This document shows, piece after piece, positions 5,507-12,713 of a stretch of 12,713 bases of DNA (position 1 is its first letter; each line of letters starts with the position of its first letter). The translations under genes and the position numbers were made by a program. The notes beneath the pieces were generated by a model that was not told the origin of the DNA, did no database searches, and saw nothing but the letters and a program-made list of their open reading frames with translations. Source of the DNA: Bdellovibrionales bacterium (lineage in GTDB: Bacteria > Bdellovibrionota > Bacteriovoracia > Bacteriovoracales > Bacteriovoracaceae). The stretch spans positions 1 to 12,713 of the forward strand of contig SXUH01000380.1 in the NCBI GenBank assembly GCA_005791855.1. Reading direction: 5' to 3'.

Positions 5507-6334
5507 CTAGGGGGTTACTTCGGGTTCCATTCTCCAGGCTTTGGTTTCCCCGTCCCACGGGTCGACGAAGCCCAGAGAAACGGCGTAGAGCTGGAGGCCA
5601 CTGCGGTTTTTATTCCCTTTACCGTACTTCGGATCCCCCAGCACCGGATGGCCAATGAAATCAAGGTGCCGGCGGATCTGGTGGAGCCGGCCGGTTTCGA
5701 TGTGGACGCGCAGGAGGCTCGTGTCCCTAGCGGTTTCGAGGACTTCGACGTGCGTGGTGGCCTCCTTCTGGTCCAGGGACGCCCGGATGGTCTCCGTGTG
5801 TCCCTTCGGGAGGGAGCCGCGGACCACGGCGAGGTACTCCTTCTTAATGAGGTTTTTCTGGAAGAGCTCCCCCAGGAGAGCGGCGGCCCTCGAGGTGTAG
5901 GCGATGAGCATGAGGCCCGTGGTTTCCCGGTCGAGGCGGTGGACGAGGAAGACCTCGTGGCCCGTCTTGAGTTCCACGCAGCGGAGGAGGGAGGCGTGGT
6001 CCCCCGTCTGCGTGCCCTGGGGGACCACGCCGGGTGCCTTGATCCAGACGCCGTAGTTCTTATTCTCGTAGACGCACTCGGCGTCTTCGAGCTCCGGGAG
6101 CTTTAGCACGCGCGGGTCGTAGAAGAACTGGACCACGTCCCGGGGGGAGAGGGGTTCCTCGGTGCTCCGGCAGCGGAGGATCTTTCCCCGGCCGGCCCGC
6201 TGGAGCCAGACGGACCCCTTCCGGGCCGCCTCGGCGACCGCGGCCTCCGGGAGGCCCGAGAGCTTCCCGAGCAGCTCCCCGAGGGTCGCCCCCGTGGGGA
6301 AGAGCCGTTGGACCTCCGACTTGTAGACTCGCAT
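5507..6334 (-). CDS. RluA-family RNA pseudouridine synthase
   Basis: A 275-residue enzyme converting specific uridines in RNA (23S rRNA or tRNA in characterised relatives) to pseudouridine. The catalytic motif HRLDRETTGLML (132-143) contains the nucleophilic Asp135. The second family signature GRLHQIRRHL (215-224) and the following GHPVLGDPKYG are intact. Residues about 15-75 resemble a degenerate S4 RNA-binding domain preceding the catalytic domain. Family members RluA, RluC and RluD cannot be told apart reliably here, so no gene symbol is given. The ATG at 6334 overlaps the stop of the upstream receptor-like gene by one base (TGATG), indicating translational coupling. No terminator follows the gene. 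Confidence 0.92.
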   Translation of the reverse strand: MRVYKSEVQRLFPTGATLGELLGKLSGLPEAAVAEAARKGSVWLQRAGRGKILRCRSTEEPLSPRDVVQFFYDPRVLKLPELEDAECVYENKNYGVWIKAPGVVPQGTQTGDHASLLRCVELKTGHEVFLVHRLDRETTGLMLIAYTSRAAALLGELFQKNLIKKEYLAVVRGSLPKGHTETIRASLDQKEATTHVEVLETARDTSLLRVHIETGRLHQIRRHLDFIGHPVLGDPKYGKGNKNRSGLQLYAVSLGFVDPWDGETKAWRMEPEVTP

Positions 6335-8628
6335 CAGGACAGGAAGTTCCCCAGCGACTCCTTGGAGAGGTCCTTCACCTCGTTGGACTTCCCGAGGTCC
6401 TTCTTCATGAGCGCGTGCAGGGCCTTGAAGCTCTCGATGATCGCGGTCTCATCCTGGCCCTGGGCCTCCTGGATCTCCCGGAGGGCCCGGGCCAGGTCCT
6501 GCTCGGACTGCGGGGGCTGGAACTTGAAGTTGGTCTGCTCGGTGGAGACCTTGTCGTTCATCACGTTGAGCTTGCTCAGGAGCATGTCGATCTGGGTGAG
6601 CTTCTTCTCGAAGGTGGTCACGCTCACGTCCAGGCGGGAGAGCTCGTCCTTGTAGCGGCTCGCGAGCCGCTGATGGTGCTCGTCCAGGGCCGGGAGCTGG
6701 CCGAAGAGGTTCGAGTTCAGGGAGACGAGGCGGCCCTTCACCTCGACCAGCTCGGCCTTGAGCTTCTTGGCGTCGGCCCGGACGGCGTCGAGCTGGGCCA
6801 TGGTCTCCACGGTCTCCTTGTTCTTCTTGATGAGGTTGTGGTTCGTGCCCTGGATCTTGAGCGCGTCGGTCTTTAGGTCGTCGCTCTGCTGGAGGATGGA
6901 CCGGTTGATGTGCAGGAGGGACTCGATCCGGTCGACGGTGGTGAGGAACGAATCCCGCAGGGTGCTCGCGAGCTGGAACTCCTGCCGGATGATCTCCTTC
7001 TTCTCCTCTTCGAGGTCCGAGACCTTCCGCAAGCCATCCTGGAGCTGCTGGTTTTCCTTCTCGAGCGACCGGATCGCCTCGTAGCACTCGGTGAGCTCGC
7101 CGCTCAGGCCCTGGTGCAGGTCGACGAGGTCCTGGTAGAGGTCGTGGAGGTCGTTGCCGCGGAAGTCCTTCTCGAGGAGCTTCAGCTGGTTGTCGTCGAG
7201 CTTCTCCGCCCGCCAGAGGCTCGTGAAGCGCTGGAGCGTCTGCCGGGAGAGGTTCACCTGTTCGTTGATCGCTTCCTTCGCGGAGACCAGCGGGTAGAAG
7301 AACACCATCACCCGGTCCTCGCGGTTGACCTGGATCGGCGTGACGTACATCTCGTAGGGCTGGGACATGGCGAACTCGTCCTGCTTCACCTTGATCGGGT
7401 AGATCCCGGCGATCTTGTTCACCAGGGCCTGGTACACCGGGTCCTCGTCGAGGTTCAGGTAGTCGCGGAGGTAGTCCCAGTTGAAGGCGTCGCTCTTGAT
7501 CTCCTCTTCGCTCAGGTAGAACTGCTCGAGGAAGAGGTGGTTGTGCCAGGTGAGCTTGAAGTTGTTGTCGATGAGGCACCCGGCGAAGGGCAGGCCGTTG
7601 TGGAGCATGGATCCGAGGTTGAGCTTGATCTTGATCTCGTCGAGGAGGCGGATGATGTCGGTGCGGGTCTCCTCCGAGTAGTGCTCCATGAGGAAGCGCT
7701 CGTCGCCGAGGATCCCGTTCTTGATCACGCTCTTCACCTCGGCTTCCACCTGGCTGGCCAGCTTCCCCTTCTGCCAGCGGAAGAGGTAGGCCAGGCCCAT
7801 CCACGCCACCACGAGGAAGCCGACGATGCCGGCGAGGAGCTGGATGAGCTTGTTGTGCTTCTGGAAGCGCATCCCCTGGAGGTCCTTCGCCTTCTTCTCC
7901 ACCTCGAGCATCCACTCGGAGAGGGCCAGGGACGCCTGGGTGACGTGGGCCTTGAGGTCCCGCGACTGGGAGTTGAGGCCCGAGAGCTGGTTGATCTCGT
8001 GGTCCATGGACTGGAACCGCGAGACGAGGGCCGCCTTGTCGGCTTCGCTCAGCGCGGAGTTCTCCACGGTCTGCTCGAGCCGCTTGATGTCCGCCTGCAG
8101 GTTGGCCACCTGGGCCGAGGTGCCGACGTTCTTCGGGTTGAGCTGGTCGAGGCGCTCGGTCATCCGCTCGGTGATGGCTTCGACGTTCTTGAACTTGTTC
8201 GACCGGGCCACGTCCTGGAGGCCCGCGACCTTGGACCGCAGGACCTTGATGGCGTCCGAGGGATCGGACATGCTCGTGGTCTTGTTGATGAGGCCGTTGA
8301 AGGTCCGGATCCCCCGGCTGAGGTCCTTGCTCACCTGGATCTCGAGGAGCTCCTCCGTCTCGGCGATCTTCTTCCCGAGGTCCTTCATCTTATCGTTGGC
8401 CTTGTCGGACTGGGCCCAGGAGAGGAGCTTCCCGGTCTTCTCGAAGCTCATGTCGTTCTTCAGGTAGTGGACGAGGGAGTTGATCTTGAGGCCCCGTTCC
8501 TCCTCCGTGCTCTGGAGGTGGTTCAGGCGGAGGGCGAAGAGGGTCGCGAGGGTGGCGAGGATGACGGCGACGACGAAGATACTGTGCACGAACCATTGGC
8601 CACGGTTGAAGGTCTTTTTCCAGTCCAT
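6334..8628 (-). CDS. Two-span membrane protein with PAS-like domain and long coiled coils (receptor-like, unknown function)
   Basis: A 764-residue inner-membrane protein with no recognised family. Order: short cytoplasmic N-terminus; membrane span about 11-33; a periplasmic, almost wholly helical region (35-258); span about 261-283; a linker (285-340); a PAS-like domain (about 341-448, including 'GCLIDNNFKLTWHNHLF' and a terminal 'RVMVFFYPL' strand); a helical segment with long coiled coils (about 505-700); and an acidic/basic tail. The layout mimics chemoreceptors, but the conserved methyl-accepting signalling tip is absent, as are histidine-kinase, GGDEF and EAL motifs. The ATG at 8628 was preferred because AAGGGTGA lies at a proper distance; an in-frame GTG at 8637 sits directly on AAGG with no spacer. 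The gene follows the flagellar operon terminator and overlaps the pseudouridine synthase gene by one base. A role in flagellar or polar organisation is a guess from position. Confidence 0.88.
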   Translation of the reverse strand: MDWKKTFNRGQWFVHSIFVVAVILATLATLFALRLNHLQSTEEERGLKINSLVHYLKNDMSFEKTGKLLSWAQSDKANDKMKDLGKKIAETEELLEIQVSKDLSRGIRTFNGLINKTTSMSDPSDAIKVLRSKVAGLQDVARSNKFKNVEAITERMTERLDQLNPKNVGTSAQVANLQADIKRLEQTVENSALSEADKAALVSRFQSMDHEINQLSGLNSQSRDLKAHVTQASLALSEWMLEVEKKAKDLQGMRFQKHNKLIQLLAGIVGFLVVAWMGLAYLFRWQKGKLASQVEAEVKSVIKNGILGDERFLMEHYSEETRTDIIRLLDEIKIKLNLGSMLHNGLPFAGCLIDNNFKLTWHNHLFLEQFYLSEEEIKSDAFNWDYLRDYLNLDEDPVYQALVNKIAGIYPIKVKQDEFAMSQPYEMYVTPIQVNREDRVMVFFYPLVSAKEAINEQVNLSRQTLQRFTSLWRAEKLDDNQLKLLEKDFRGNDLHDLYQDLVDLHQGLSGELTECYEAIRSLEKENQQLQDGLRKVSDLEEEKKEIIRQEFQLASTLRDSFLTTVDRIESLLHINRSILQQSDDLKTDALKIQGTNHNLIKKNKETVETMAQLDAVRADAKKLKAELVEVKGRLVSLNSNLFGQLPALDEHHQRLASRYKDELSRLDVSVTTFEKKLTQIDMLLSKLNVMNDKVSTEQTNFKFQPPQSEQDLARALREIQEAQGQDETAIIESFKALHALMKKDLGKSNEVKDLSKESLGNFLS

Positions 8629-8636
8629 TGAGGTCA

Positions 8637-8700
8637 CCCTTGGTAAGTAATTTTCGCTACTTAATATTTTTCACAATGTGGGATGGAAAGGGAAGCACTA
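8637..8700 (-). promoter_or_regulatory. Probable promoter/leader of the receptor-like gene, with inverted repeat
   Basis: This AT-rich stretch lies between the fliA terminator and the receptor-like gene. It holds a perfect 6-bp inverted repeat, TAAGTA (8644-8649) and TACTTA (8658-8663), with an 8-base spacer, just upstream of the AAGGGTGA ribosome site. On the minus strand TTTCCA and TATTAA are 17 bases apart and could serve as -35/-10. No sigma-28 (TAAA-N15-GCCGATAA) or sigma-54 (GG-N10-GC) promoter is recognisable. Confidence 0.4.
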
Positions 8701-8757: not shown

Positions 8758-9543
8758 TTAGCTTGCCAGGTCTTCGAACGATTCGAATTGGTTCCGGAGC
8801 TTCACCTTGAGCTTCAGGATCGCCTGGGTGTGGAGCTGGGAGACGCGGGACTCGGTCACGTCGAGGACCTGGCCGATCTCCTTGAGGTTCAGGTCTTCGA
8901 AGTAGTAGAGGGACAGCACGAGCCGCTGCTTCTCCGGGAGGGTCTTGATCCCCTCCTTGATGATCTCCTGGGCGCGCTTGTAGCCCACGGCCATCTGCGG
9001 GTTCGCGGACCGCGAGGTCTCCATGAGGGAGACCATGAGCTTCTTGTCGCCCTTGCTCATCGCGGCCGCGTCTTCGATGTTCAGGAGGGAGACGGACTTG
9101 GCCTTGTTCACGAGTTCGTGGAAGTCGTCCATGGTGCAGTTCAGGTGCTCGCACATCTCGTCGTCGGTGGCCGGCCGGCCCAGGTCCTTCTCGAGAGCGG
9201 CGTAGGCCTTCTCCACCACCTTCGCCTTCTCGCGGACGGACCGCGGGACCCAGTCCTGGGAGCGGAGCTCGTCGAGGATGGCTCCGCGGATCCGGAACTC
9301 GGCGTAGGTCTTGAACTTGTTGTCCCGGGTCGGGTCGAACTTCTCGATGGCGTCCATGAGGCCGATGACCCCGCAGGAGATCATGTCGTCGAGCTCGATG
9401 TTCGGCGGCAGCCGGGAGGCGATCTTCTGGGCGATGTAGCGGACCAGGGGAGCGTACTCGAGGATGATCTCTTCTTTGACTTTCGGATCCACCGTCGAGC
9501 GGTAGTCCTTCAGATTCTTCAGCTTGGCCGTTAGTGATGACAT
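8758..9543 (-). CDS. fliA: Flagellar sigma factor FliA (sigma-28 / WhiG family)
   Basis: A 261-residue alternative sigma factor directing RNA polymerase to late flagellar and chemotaxis promoters. Region 2 spans about 25-100, with 'LVRYIAQKIASRLP' and the core-binding/-10 segment 'DDMISCGVIGLMDAIEKFDP' followed by 'FKTYAEFRIRGAILDELR'. Region 3 follows (about 101-160). Region 4 (about 185-250) carries the helix-turn-helix LKEIGQVLDVTESRVSQLHT (220-239). Length and order fit the FliA/WhiG group, and RsbV-type stress domains are absent. The ATG at 9543 has AAGGAG about 8 bases upstream. It is the last gene of the flagellar operon, 43 bases after flhG, and is followed by a terminator. No anti-sigma gene (flgM) is visible here. 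Confidence 0.95.
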   Translation of the reverse strand: MSSLTAKLKNLKDYRSTVDPKVKEEIILEYAPLVRYIAQKIASRLPPNIELDDMISCGVIGLMDAIEKFDPTRDNKFKTYAEFRIRGAILDELRSQDWVPRSVREKAKVVEKAYAALEKDLGRPATDDEMCEHLNCTMDDFHELVNKAKSVSLLNIEDAAAMSKGDKKLMVSLMETSRSANPQMAVGYKRAQEIIKEGIKTLPEKQRLVLSLYYFEDLNLKEIGQVLDVTESRVSQLHTQAILKLKVKLRNQFESFEDLAS

Positions 9544-9586: not shown

Positions 9587-10441
9587 TCAGTGGGTCTCGG
9601 GCGTCTGCCGTAACTCGCCGGCCGCCGCGCCACCGACTTTTTCGGTGAACGCGTATAAAAGTTTAATGAAGTTCCTGTGGGCCTCGTTCCGGGTGTCGGA
9701 GAGGAAAAAAGTATCAAACCCCTCCGGGGCGACCTCGAGCCGGTTGATCCCGCCGAGGAAGTGCGACTCGACCCCGAGGAAGGTCCGGGTGGTCTCCCGG
9801 ACCGTCGAGATCACCTTGAAGAGCTGCTTGTCCGAGGTGTACATGTTCACCAGGATGTGGTTCTCCTTGACGTTGAACCTCTGGCTCAGGACCTTGATCA
9901 GGGAGTAGGAGTCGGTGATCGACGACTTGTCCGGGGTGACGACGACGAAGCGGTAGTCGCAGGCGGCGTTCAGGGTCAGGGCCTCCCGGGAGAGCCCCGC
10001 CGGGCAGTCGAGGAGGACGTAGTCGTACTCGTGCTCGTGGGACGTGATGATGTCTCCGATGATCTCGTCGAGCTTGAGCTTGTTCTCGAAGATCTCGAGC
10101 GAGCCGTTGCAGGCCGGGAGGATGTGGAGCCGGCCGTGCTGGACCAGGCACTCCTCGAAGGAGATCTGCGCCGAGAGGAGCCGCTCGAACTTGTCGTCGA
10201 GGGGGATGCCGAGCTTGATCGCGGTGTTCGAGAGGTTCGAGTCGCAGTCGACGAGGAGGGTCCGGTAGCCGGCCTGGGCGAGTTCCTTGGCCATCTTCAG
10301 GGCGATGGAGGTCTTCCCCACTCCCCCCTTCCCGCCGGTGATGGAGATCTTCGTGCAGGGCTTGAACGGGTTGCGGGTCTTCAGCTGGGAAGCGCCGGTC
10401 TCCGACTTGAAAGAAAGCAGCCACTCGCTGGTCTTGTGCAT
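9587..10441 (-). CDS. flhG: FlhG (FleN/YlxH), MinD-like ATPase controlling flagellar number; lacks the FlhF-activating N-terminus
   Basis: A 284-residue ParA/MinD-type ATPase that in other bacteria limits flagellar number and regulates FlhF. The deviant Walker A motif GGKGGVGKT (36-44, Lys38 and Lys43) is intact. The switch I segment is LLVDCDSNLSN (Asp65, Asp67), and Walker B is YVLLDCPAG (Asp145). The 'SITDSYSLIKVL' segment is characteristic of the FlhG branch. A C-terminal amphipathic stretch near 'HRNFIKLLYAFTEKVG' could be the membrane-targeting helix. The N-terminal 30 residues contain no DQAxxLR motif, the element that stimulates FlhF GTPase in studied species. An in-frame TAG upstream with no start codon after it excludes a longer protein. 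The start has AGGAGG 3 bases before the ATG, a rather tight spacing. The gene lies between flhF and fliA. Confidence 0.93.
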   Translation of the reverse strand: MHKTSEWLLSFKSETGASQLKTRNPFKPCTKISITGGKGGVGKTSIALKMAKELAQAGYRTLLVDCDSNLSNTAIKLGIPLDDKFERLLSAQISFEECLVQHGRLHILPACNGSLEIFENKLKLDEIIGDIITSHEHEYDYVLLDCPAGLSREALTLNAACDYRFVVVTPDKSSITDSYSLIKVLSQRFNVKENHILVNMYTSDKQLFKVISTVRETTRTFLGVESHFLGGINRLEVAPEGFDTFFLSDTRNEAHRNFIKLLYAFTEKVGGAAAGELRQTPETH

Positions 10442-10520: not shown

Positions 10521-12050
10521 CTAGAACTGGAAGAGGCCTGACATCAATCTCTCGGAAGTCGCTCCCTCGAGGTCGTCGGGGACCACGGGGCCCGTGCCGA
10601 AGAACTTGAGGGGTAACTTGTTGTAGGCCCTGTGAACGTTGAAGAGGGATCCGAAGTTCATGCAGAGGTCCACATGAGAAATGATAACACCGTCTACGAC
10701 GTCCTTATATCGGGCAATTATTTTTCTGTTATAAAGTTCCGAGTGGATGGCGGAAAGCGTGCAGAGGACTTCTACGTGCTGGAAACCACGGCGGAGGGTC
10801 TCAACAAATTTTTTAGTGTCCTCGGTGGCCCGGCCGCTCAGGCGGACGTCCACGAGGACAGATTTGCCGGCTTCCGTCGCCTTCCGACACAGGCCCACGA
10901 CCTCCGAGAGGTTCTGGACCTTCTCGACCTTGATCCCGAAGACCTGGGCCGCGAAGTCCGAGGAGGTGGAGTTCTGCGCGTCCTGGGAGTACTGGATGAG
11001 GACGACGTCCTTCTTCAGGACGGCGATCTTCGTCCCCATCGTGCTCTGGCCCGAGGCCGCCTCGGAGACGAGCACCGTGATCACCGGCGCGCCGGTTTCG
11101 ATCTTCGCGAAGAGCGGGATGTCCGTGTGGATCGCGCCCGCCATCTCCTTCAGGGCGAACTCGAAGACCACGTCCGGGTTCTCGAGGTCTTCCTTGGAGA
11201 ACTCGTAGTTCGCCTTCTTGATCAGGTCGAGGACGTGGGCCTCGCTCACGTCGAGGGTCTTGAGGGTCGTGCGGAGCTGGAAGATCCCCTTCGCTTCGTT
11301 GGCGTGCTTCGGGTGCTGCTGGCCCTGGGTGAGCTCGAGGAGCTTCTGCTCGAGGAGTTCCATGCGGTGGTGCTGGGTCCGGAGCTCCTGCTTGAGCTCG
11401 TTGTACGCTTCCCGGCTGACGGTGCCCCCCGCGGGGGAGCTGGCCGCCGGGTCCTTCCCCAGCGCGGGAGCCGCGTCCTTCTGCGCGGCCTGGAACTGCG
11501 CGGCCTTCGGCGCCTTCGCGGCCGGCGGCGGATCGGCGTACTTCCCGCTGTTCTTCGGCGCCGGGGGCGCCCGCCGGACCGGGACGTCGGCCGAGTCGCT
11601 GTCCGTGTCTCTCCCGTCGGAGTCGGTGAGGAAGTCGTCGAGGCTGTTCTTGATGATCGACGAGGTCTTGCTCTTCACGTCCGCGAGGCTCGCCGACCCC
11701 TTGGCGAGCGTGTTCACCACCTTGTTCAGCCCGAGGCCTCCGTAGCCACCGCCCGGGCCCTGCGCCTCGGCGCCGGTGTTGTAGCGGGTGATGGTTTCCT
11801 TGATGGCGGAAGCGGGCTTCTGGTAGAAGGCTTCCTTCTGGTCGTCGTTCAACACTTTGTCCACCTTCGCCTTCTTCTCGAAGCTTCGCTCGGAGATGGC
11901 CGCTGTGATCTCGATGCGCTTCTTCTTGAAGGCGCCCTTCAATCCGTTGTTTGTAATCGTCTTCAGGATGATCGCGTCGGGCCCGAGCTCGAGCTTCACG
12001 GCCTTCAGGGCTTCCTCTAGAGTGTCTGCCTCGAACTTCTTAACGAACAT
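10521..12050 (-). CDS. flhF: FlhF-like flagellar placement protein with degenerate GTPase motifs
   Basis: A 509-residue protein of the SRP-type GTPase family that normally marks the pole for flagellar assembly. The N-terminal B domain matches the family (MFVKKFEADTLEEALKAVKLE, with 'LGPDAIILKT' at 22-31). A long low-complexity linker rich in Ala, Pro, Ser and Lys (about 95-210) and a helical N domain (about 212-310) follow. The G domain (about 322-509) keeps its length and its family ending ('LPLKFFGTGPVVPDDLEGATSERL'), but the motifs are gone. The P-loop GPTGVGKT is replaced by SEAASGQS (329-336, Gln335 for Lys), DTYR by a Gln/Ser-rich stretch (353-363), DTAGRS by DVRLSGRA (401-408), and TKLD by SHVD (458-461). 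GTP binding is therefore unlikely. The reading frame is intact, so this is not a pseudogene. The start is 3 bases after the flhA stop, with GAGG 9 bases upstream of the ATG. Confidence 0.9.
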   Translation of the reverse strand: MFVKKFEADTLEEALKAVKLELGPDAIILKTITNNGLKGAFKKKRIEITAAISERSFEKKAKVDKVLNDDQKEAFYQKPASAIKETITRYNTGAEAQGPGGGYGGLGLNKVVNTLAKGSASLADVKSKTSSIIKNSLDDFLTDSDGRDTDSDSADVPVRRAPPAPKNSGKYADPPPAAKAPKAAQFQAAQKDAAPALGKDPAASSPAGGTVSREAYNELKQELRTQHHRMELLEQKLLELTQGQQHPKHANEAKGIFQLRTTLKTLDVSEAHVLDLIKKANYEFSKEDLENPDVVFEFALKEMAGAIHTDIPLFAKIETGAPVITVLVSEAASGQSTMGTKIAVLKKDVVLIQYSQDAQNSTSSDFAAQVFGIKVEKVQNLSEVVGLCRKATEAGKSVLVDVRLSGRATEDTKKFVETLRRGFQHVEVLCTLSAIHSELYNRKIIARYKDVVDGVIISHVDLCMNFGSLFNVHRAYNKLPLKFFGTGPVVPDDLEGATSERLMSGLFQF

Positions 12051-12053
12051 TCT

Positions 12054-12713
12054 TTATAACCTCACGGTGCCGAGAGATCGGATATTCACTTCTGGACTCA
12101 ACTCATTATGGCTGACCACGATCATGTTGGGAATAAATTTCTCCGTGAGCTTCTTGAAGTGCCGCCGGATCACCGGCGAGCAGAGCACGACCATCTTCTC
12201 TCCCTGCGAGGTGGCCTCTTCGATCTTCTCGTTGAGGCTCGCGAGGATCGTCTGCGTGACCTTCGGATCGAGGTTGAGCTGGGTGCCGTGGTCCGTGTGG
12301 ATGATGGACCTCGCGACCGCTTCCTCGAGGCTCCGGTCGAGCGTGAAGAGCGGGACGTCCCCGGCCGAGCTCTTGATCCGCTCGGTGATCGTCCGGTACA
12401 GCGCCTGACGGGCGTACTCGGTCAGCGCGTCCGGGTCCTTCGTCCCCGGGCCGAACTCCGCGAGGGCCTCGAGGATCGTCCGGAGGTCCCGGATGGAGAC
12501 CGCTTCCCGGAGGAGGTTCTGGAGGACCTTCAGCACGGTCCCCAGGGGCATGATGTCCGGGACGAGGTCGGAGACGACCTTCGGATGGTCTTCCTTGAAC
12601 GTGTCGAGGATGCGCACGAGTTCCTGCCGCCCGAAGAGCTCGCTGAGGTTCGCCTTGAGGACCTCGGTGAGGTGGGTCGCCACGATGGTCGAGAGGTCGA
12701 CGACGGTGTAGCC
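12054..12713 (-). CDS. flhA: Flagellar export-gate protein FlhA, C-terminal part (5' end outside the window)
   Basis: The last 219 codons of flhA; the frame is open to the right edge, so the apparent internal GTG at 12683 is not the start. FlhA is the integral membrane gate of the flagellar type III secretion apparatus. This segment belongs to its cytoplasmic C-terminal domain, which forms the nonameric ring that docks export chaperones. Recognisable segments are GYTVVDLSTIVATHLTEVLK, then LFGRQELVRILD, 'MPLGTVLKVLQNLLREAVSIRD' (shortened by the family's usual pattern), 'EYARQALYRTI', 'CSPVIRRHFKKL', and the terminal 'SLGTVRL', which resembles the SLGTV ending common in the family. It is the most upstream visible gene of the flhA-flhF-flhG-fliA operon, 3 bases from flhF. 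Confidence 0.95.
   Translation of the reverse strand, partial: GYTVVDLSTIVATHLTEVLKANLSELFGRQELVRILDTFKEDHPKVVSDLVPDIMPLGTVLKVLQNLLREAVSIRDLRTILEALAEFGPGTKDPDALTEYARQALYRTITERIKSSAGDVPLFTLDRSLEEAVARSIIHTDHGTQLNLDPKVTQTILASLNEKIEEATSQGEKMVVLCSPVIRRHFKKLTEKFIPNMIVVSHNELSPEVNIRSLGTVRL

Follow-up and report, generated by a model that had tools for sequence, protein, structure and literature searches.

The analysed stretch of DNA (the window, 12,713 nucleotides) is a contig of a MAG that is 60% complete. Its minus strand, which carries all features described here, holds in order the 3' end of flhA (12054..12713), an open reading frame of 509 codons (12050..10521), a gene for a FlhG/MinD-like ATPase with an intact Walker A motif (9587..10441) and fliA, encoding sigma-28 (8758..9543); flhA and fliA are assigned by profile matches and flhG by Pfam and NCBIfam matches together with its sequence. 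Downstream of fliA lies an ORF for a 767-residue coiled-coil/membrane protein (6334..8637) that finds no match in Pfam or PHROGs. The 509-codon ORF runs without interruption and sits in the standard place of flhF, in the order flhA-flhF-flhG-fliA, and on both counts, an undamaged frame and an intact operon, the sequence-only reading of this DNA was correct.

We find that this ORF (10521..12050) encodes an FlhF-derived pseudo-GTPase, a description that draws on the ORF itself, Pfam and NCBIfam, profile alignment and a PDB match. Profile alignments and conservation within the class of Bacteriovorax and Halobacteriovorax (hereafter the class) divide the protein into an N-terminal part (residues 1-75; 11826..12050), which corresponds to the location of the FliG-interaction domain in Shewanella as given in excerpts of PMC11236974, a variable linker (residues 76-225; 11376..11825), the N subdomain of the NG unit (about residues 255-320; 11091..11288) and a degenerate SRP-type G domain, recognised by Pfam and by alignment (residues 321-509; 10524..11090). 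Mean entropies, calculated on the 58 of 115 class rows that remain after dereplication (5 of 120 rows were short and dropped), are 1.02 bits for the N-terminal region, 1.80 for the G domain, 1.97 for the N subdomain and 2.5 for the linker, so that the N-terminal domain, described earlier as well kept, has the lowest value in the protein.

Descent from FlhF is established by profile comparison. A class-only NG profile aligns across 274 columns with the phylum's canonical FlhF (hhalign, 99.7% probability, E = 2.7e-25), and its best PDB chain is B. subtilis FlhF, 2px0 (E = 2e-12); a profile that includes 12 canonical sequences reaches E = 3.4e-38, a value boosted by those 12. The full-length class profile places SRP54 at the top of its PDB matches, with many chance hemagglutinin-linker matches, drawn by the linker, ahead of 2px0, and a single-sequence phmmer search of the PDB with the FlhF-like protein returns no match. 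The Pfam SRP54 match (34.2 bits) is limited to profile positions 61-195, and the score against the NCBIfam FlhF equivalog TIGR03499, 57.7 bits, lies far below the cut-off of 174.15 bits. With SRP-type NG homology over its length, a conserved N-terminal region and the flhA-flhF-flhG-fliA order, the ORF at 12050..10521 is an flhF orthologue by descent. It shares with canonical FlhF (2px0/2px3/3syn, 8r9r) the domain order, the NG fold by profile, the N-terminal domain, the operon, G5 and both motif aspartates, but has lost the P-loop lysine and two of the three P-loop glycines, G2, the TAG of G3 and the lysine of G4, and its FlhG partner in the class lacks the DQAxxLR motif. Ffh and FtsY, the SRP GTPases, have the same NG fold by profile, but keep all GTPase motifs and are encoded by separate genes within the class.

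In these alignments, canonical GPTGVGKTT falls onto SEAASGQST (residues S329-T337; 11040..11066), which places Gln335 in the column of the catalytic lysine; the canonical DTYR region falls onto YSQDAQNSTSSD (residues 354-362; 10965..10991), DTAG onto DVRL (residues 401-404, within the former G3 at residues 399-405; 10836..10856) and TKLD onto SHVD (residues 458-461; 10668..10679). The original observation that the G domain aligns with FlhF while Gln335, DVRL and SHVD stand in for its motifs therefore holds against canonical FlhF. The broader statement that all GTPase motifs are lost holds for G1 and G2, which are gone, but not for G3 and G4, which retain Asp401 and Asp461, nor for G5, which is intact (FFGTGPVVPDDLE, residues 483-495; 10566..10604). 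Put in terms of the SRP-type GTPase signatures, the protein has none of G1 GxxGxGK[ST], G3 DTAG and G4 TKxD, and has the G5 loop.

The same state is found throughout the class. The position of the P-loop lysine is Gln in 118/118 readable loci from 117 genomes (2 of the 120 class loci end before or inside the site of residue 335); of the P-loop glycines, the first has become Ser in 116 loci and persists in 2, the second persists in 3, and Gly334 is kept in 117/118. Asp401 of G3 is present in 118 of the 119 loci with a letter there, TAG being lost, Asp461 of G4 in 119/119 and Gly487 of G5 in 118/118; the G4 lysine position is His in 84, Asn in 18, Tyr in 11 and Lys in 2 of 120, with other residues in the rest. 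GxxxxGK[ST] occurs nowhere in the class ORFs (0/120), compared with 53/53 in the outgroup, and on this evidence a relocated P-loop is rejected. From these replacements we infer that functional GTP binding would be absent in class FlhF. A miscall, which the earlier reading had named among the findings that would refute it, is excluded, because the same Gln is read in all readable class loci and in 120/120 database relatives (the best 120 of 829 matches).

The class set was assembled from 58 relatives and then by a profile search of 129 genomes, in which class FlhF is present in 119, giving 120 ORFs. A regular expression for the GQ pattern detects it in 73 of 78 named-record loci of the class; of the other five, four read Gln in the alignment and the fifth starts past the site. 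Carriers that are not marked as MAGs include Halobacteriovorax marinus 36_234_T64 (L085), Bacteriovorax sp. BSW11_IV (L091) and DB6_IX (L094). The P-loop lysine is kept in all 53 outgroup loci, which represent 21 further families of the phylum. They are a non-random set composed of the 30 best canonical-profile matches, 20 loci chosen for family spread and 3 from another search, and cover families in which FlhF is matched well, unlike f2, f4 or f13. Loss of the GTPase motifs is thus class-wide and no peculiarity of a single genome. In a tree built without the motif columns (47 class and 52 outgroup rows), the class forms one side of a branch with an SH-aLRT of 100, in a quick analysis in which 43 of 96 inner branches are weak and L037 draws a long-branch warning; on this tree the conversion to a pseudo-GTPase has a single origin, before the class diversified. 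Among the papers listed by searches of the open full-text literature, none describes, in its title, the start of its abstract or the excerpts consulted, an FlhF without GTPase motifs.

Class FlhF is under purifying selection. In the 12 genus pairs of lowest dS, dN/dS is 0.015-0.060 for the G domain and 0.042-0.081 for the whole gene, as simple NG86 estimates with dS near saturation in places and with the window's own sequence in none of the pairs, and Gln335 is fixed among NG domains that have diverged down to 23-26% identity. A class-specific segment, SAIHSELYNRK (residues 433-443; 10722..10754), and the G5 stretch are conserved to a degree matched by 1.2% and 0.7%, respectively, of stretches of equal length, whereas the P-loop stretch ranks within the top 16%, G3 and G4 show average conservation, and G2, the least conserved of the stretches tested, is near the bottom (entropy 3.42). 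G2 contacts Mg/phosphate in relatives. This pattern of entropies indicates that constraint on the catalytic parts has been released while Gln335, Asp461 and G5 are fixed.

A functionless relic in slow decay might account for an unconstrained G2 and for the loss of flagellar genes in some lineages, but it is already contradicted by the low dN/dS of the G domain and by positions that are invariant across the class, on which grounds neutral decay is rejected; frames are moreover open in nearly all 120 loci, two class matches containing an in-frame stop (G138 and G012, the latter next to an N run), and we regard this explanation as scarcely credible. The proposal that the motif loss was selected rather than decayed is borne out by the same values, together with the fixed Gln335 and the complete absence of GxxxxGK[ST] from the class ORFs.

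A search for SRP54 domains in 11 genomes, 8 from the class and 3 from the outgroup, recovers two full SRP54-domain genes in 8/8 class genomes, one of which lies on two contigs in G029, and a third full one in none of the eight, while the outgroup genomes G040 and G041 show a third full domain. The second flhF with GxxGxGKT that the first reading had advised looking for is accordingly not seen in any of the eight class genomes; none is found in the window's own genome either, where the search is weak at 60% completeness. That incompleteness leaves some room for a canonical FlhF encoded elsewhere that does the GTPase work, the window's gene being its paralogue, but the lack of a third full SRP54 gene in those eight class genomes and the standard position of this flhF make such an arrangement very improbable, and it is rejected for the eight genomes searched.

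The partner protein has changed as well. Canonical FlhG is reported to activate FlhF through DQAxxLR (PMC12826062). This enhancer helix occurs in 0/113 class FlhG ORFs. Walker A is intact in 112 of them, and a short N-terminal stretch, typically KTSEWLLS, includes a Trp-Leu pair in 109; in the window the FlhG N-terminus is MHKTSEWLLSF (10409..10441), with the Trp-Leu motif where the DQAxxLR helix is expected. The exceptions to the Trp-Leu pair are L022, L036, L128 (an N run) and L196. L022 (genome G002), which has no Trp-Leu pair, is also the sole class member with a changed Walker A (AGSPGSGKT).

Among outgroup FlhG ORFs the Trp-Leu pair is found in 0/33 and DQAxxLR in 12/37. The 25 of 37 loci without DQAxxLR keep the P-loop lysine in every FlhF, which indicates that loss of the enhancer is not specific to loss of the P-loop, and the G4 lysine is kept in 12/12 loci with DQAxxLR versus 9/25 without (Fisher p = 2e-4, a test that ignores kinship). 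Eroded G3/G4 motifs alongside an intact P-loop and an FlhG without DQAxxLR are seen in L215, L226, L227, L230, L234, L241, L243, L244, L246, L249, L257, L258, L261 and L262. Bdellovibrio-like families (f6, presumably Bdellovibrio itself, f11, f21, f27 and others) resemble the class in an FlhG without DQAxxLR, in the frequent loss of the G4 lysine and in a G3 in which DTAG is often D[FYH][AP]G, but, unlike the class, all those examined keep the P-loop lysine and GxxxxGK[ST]. These outgroups resemble an intermediate state toward class FlhF. Read from present-day sequences and ignoring kinship, the path looks like one in which the activator was lost first, the switch motifs then eroded, and the P-loop was lost in the class only.

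We find that class FlhF closely follows the flagellum. Across the 126 class genomes covered by both searches, FlhF and FlhA are both present in 114 and both absent in 8, with FlhA only in 1, whose flhA match is truncated, and FlhF only in 3. In G084 and G125, FliG and flagellin are present and FlhA and FlhF are not found, which is likely an assembly gap. Genus g53 departs from this pattern: FlhA, FliG and flagellin are not found in 4/4 genomes, and FlhF is kept in 3/4. These three loci (L264:7038-11570, L265:7935-12334 and L266:5710-10242) encode, in order, a 169-residue ORF that overlaps the start of flhF and has only sub-threshold Pfam matches, a short FlhF of 351-375 residues (37% identical to the window's FlhF over the NG part), fliA (64% identical), with no flhG between FlhF and fliA, and a 640-residue distant relative of the window's 767-residue ORF (21% identity, E = 7e-22). 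The g53 FlhF has a dN/dS of 0.053 in the closest pair.

The g53 genomes give some indication that the pseudo-FlhF may have moved to a new main job beyond flagellar placement, its flagellar role being secondary, as a selected FlhF persists there beside fliA and the relative of the 767-residue gene. Two observations speak against this: the rest of class FlhF tracks flhA, and the same three g53 genomes contain, away from the FlhF locus, a divergent FliF-like ORF behind a sigma-54 regulator (L268:6642-8135, L269:7032-8324 and L270:915-2405), so that a flagellar relic may persist. In flagellated relatives (L273) this site holds flgB, flgC, fliE, fliF, fliG and more. Support for the FliF-like assignment is weak (a score of 32.0 bits in G119 and, below the cut-off, of 23.5 bits in G122), and the ORF is less constrained (dN/dS of 0.45-0.56 against G119). 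A change of main job seems to us improbable.

In the literature, FlhF forms a GTP-dependent dimer, and an FlhG-driven GTP cycle is described as setting the place and number of flagella. The extent to which FlhF needs GTP differs between species and is disputed. In Vibrio, mutating the FlhF motifs abolishes both its polar localisation and the flagella, with GTP binding rather than hydrolysis needed (PMC7226244), and in P. aeruginosa stable FliG binding by FlhF requires a GTP analogue (PMC12713375), whereas S. putrefaciens FlhF binds FliG through its first 44 residues, FlhF-bound FliG can take FliF, and the NG unit binds the pole protein HubP whether GDP or GTP is present (PMC11236974), each as stated in excerpts of the respective source. 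Since contacts of the S. putrefaciens kind, to FliG and HubP, would survive the loss of GTP binding, we propose that class FlhF tethers FliG/FliF to the pole independently of GTP and that control rests with FlhG, and assign this reading a probability of roughly 0.6. The well-kept N-terminal domain would bind FliG and thereby collect FliF, and the NG fold, its switch role lost, would attach to the pole or to a partner protein. Neither the FlhF GTP cycle nor the boost given to it by the FlhG enhancer helix would exist any longer, and what control is left would fall to the FlhG ATPase, with its kept Walker A and its new N-terminal Trp-Leu motif. As to polar partners, a search of 10 class genomes recovers FipA (DUF2802) in none of them, a point against the tether; a FimV-core search returns no match in any genome, controls included. 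A comparable fate is reported for eukaryotic pseudo-GTPases such as the p190RhoGAP pseudo-GTPase domains, which retain the GTPase fold, have lost catalysis and serve as scaffolds, but are Ras-type and part of an unrelated pathway.

The need for GTP binding in Vibrio and P. aeruginosa counts against a GTP-independent tether, as do the kept G3 Asp, G4 Asp and G5, through which guanine might still be bound. These residues favor an altered but real binding of a guanine nucleotide (GDP, GMP or another ligand) through the G4 Asp, G5 and Gly334-Gln335, without hydrolysis, with the ligand still shaping the protein; Asp461, Gly487 and Gln335 are invariant in all loci that can be read, and a useless site need not fix a residue across 23-26% identity. 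The kept residues may equally be structural, however, and with G2 the least conserved stretch, TAG lost and the G4 lysine nearly always replaced, we consider such binding unlikely. Also less likely than not is a further reading in which a one-NTPase system replaces the two-NTPase FlhF/FlhG switch: the pseudo-P-loop GQ[ST] and SAIHSELYNRK would form a fixed, nucleotide-free docking face, where the FlhG Trp-Leu helix would stand in for the GTPase-activating helix, and the scaffold would have outlived the flagellum in g53, retained alongside sigma-28 and the FliF-like remnant to serve a polar function unrelated to flagella.

An FlhF without the parts that hold and split GTP, and yet strongly selected, suggests that flagellar placement may run without a GTP switch in this class, which includes the predator Bacteriovorax. 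A class whose sole FlhF has lost its GTP site is a natural experiment on which FlhF functions need no nucleotide. Bacteriovorax sp. HI3 is flagellated by electron microscopy, according to excerpts of PMC12827227.

Two minor observations concern the genome set. G081, a genome with 9% contamination, carries two class FlhF copies, and FlhF end pieces in G146 (G146:C334:3601-3900) and G093 (G093:C105:3569-3868) have identical scores; both are likely the result of MAG cross-contamination.
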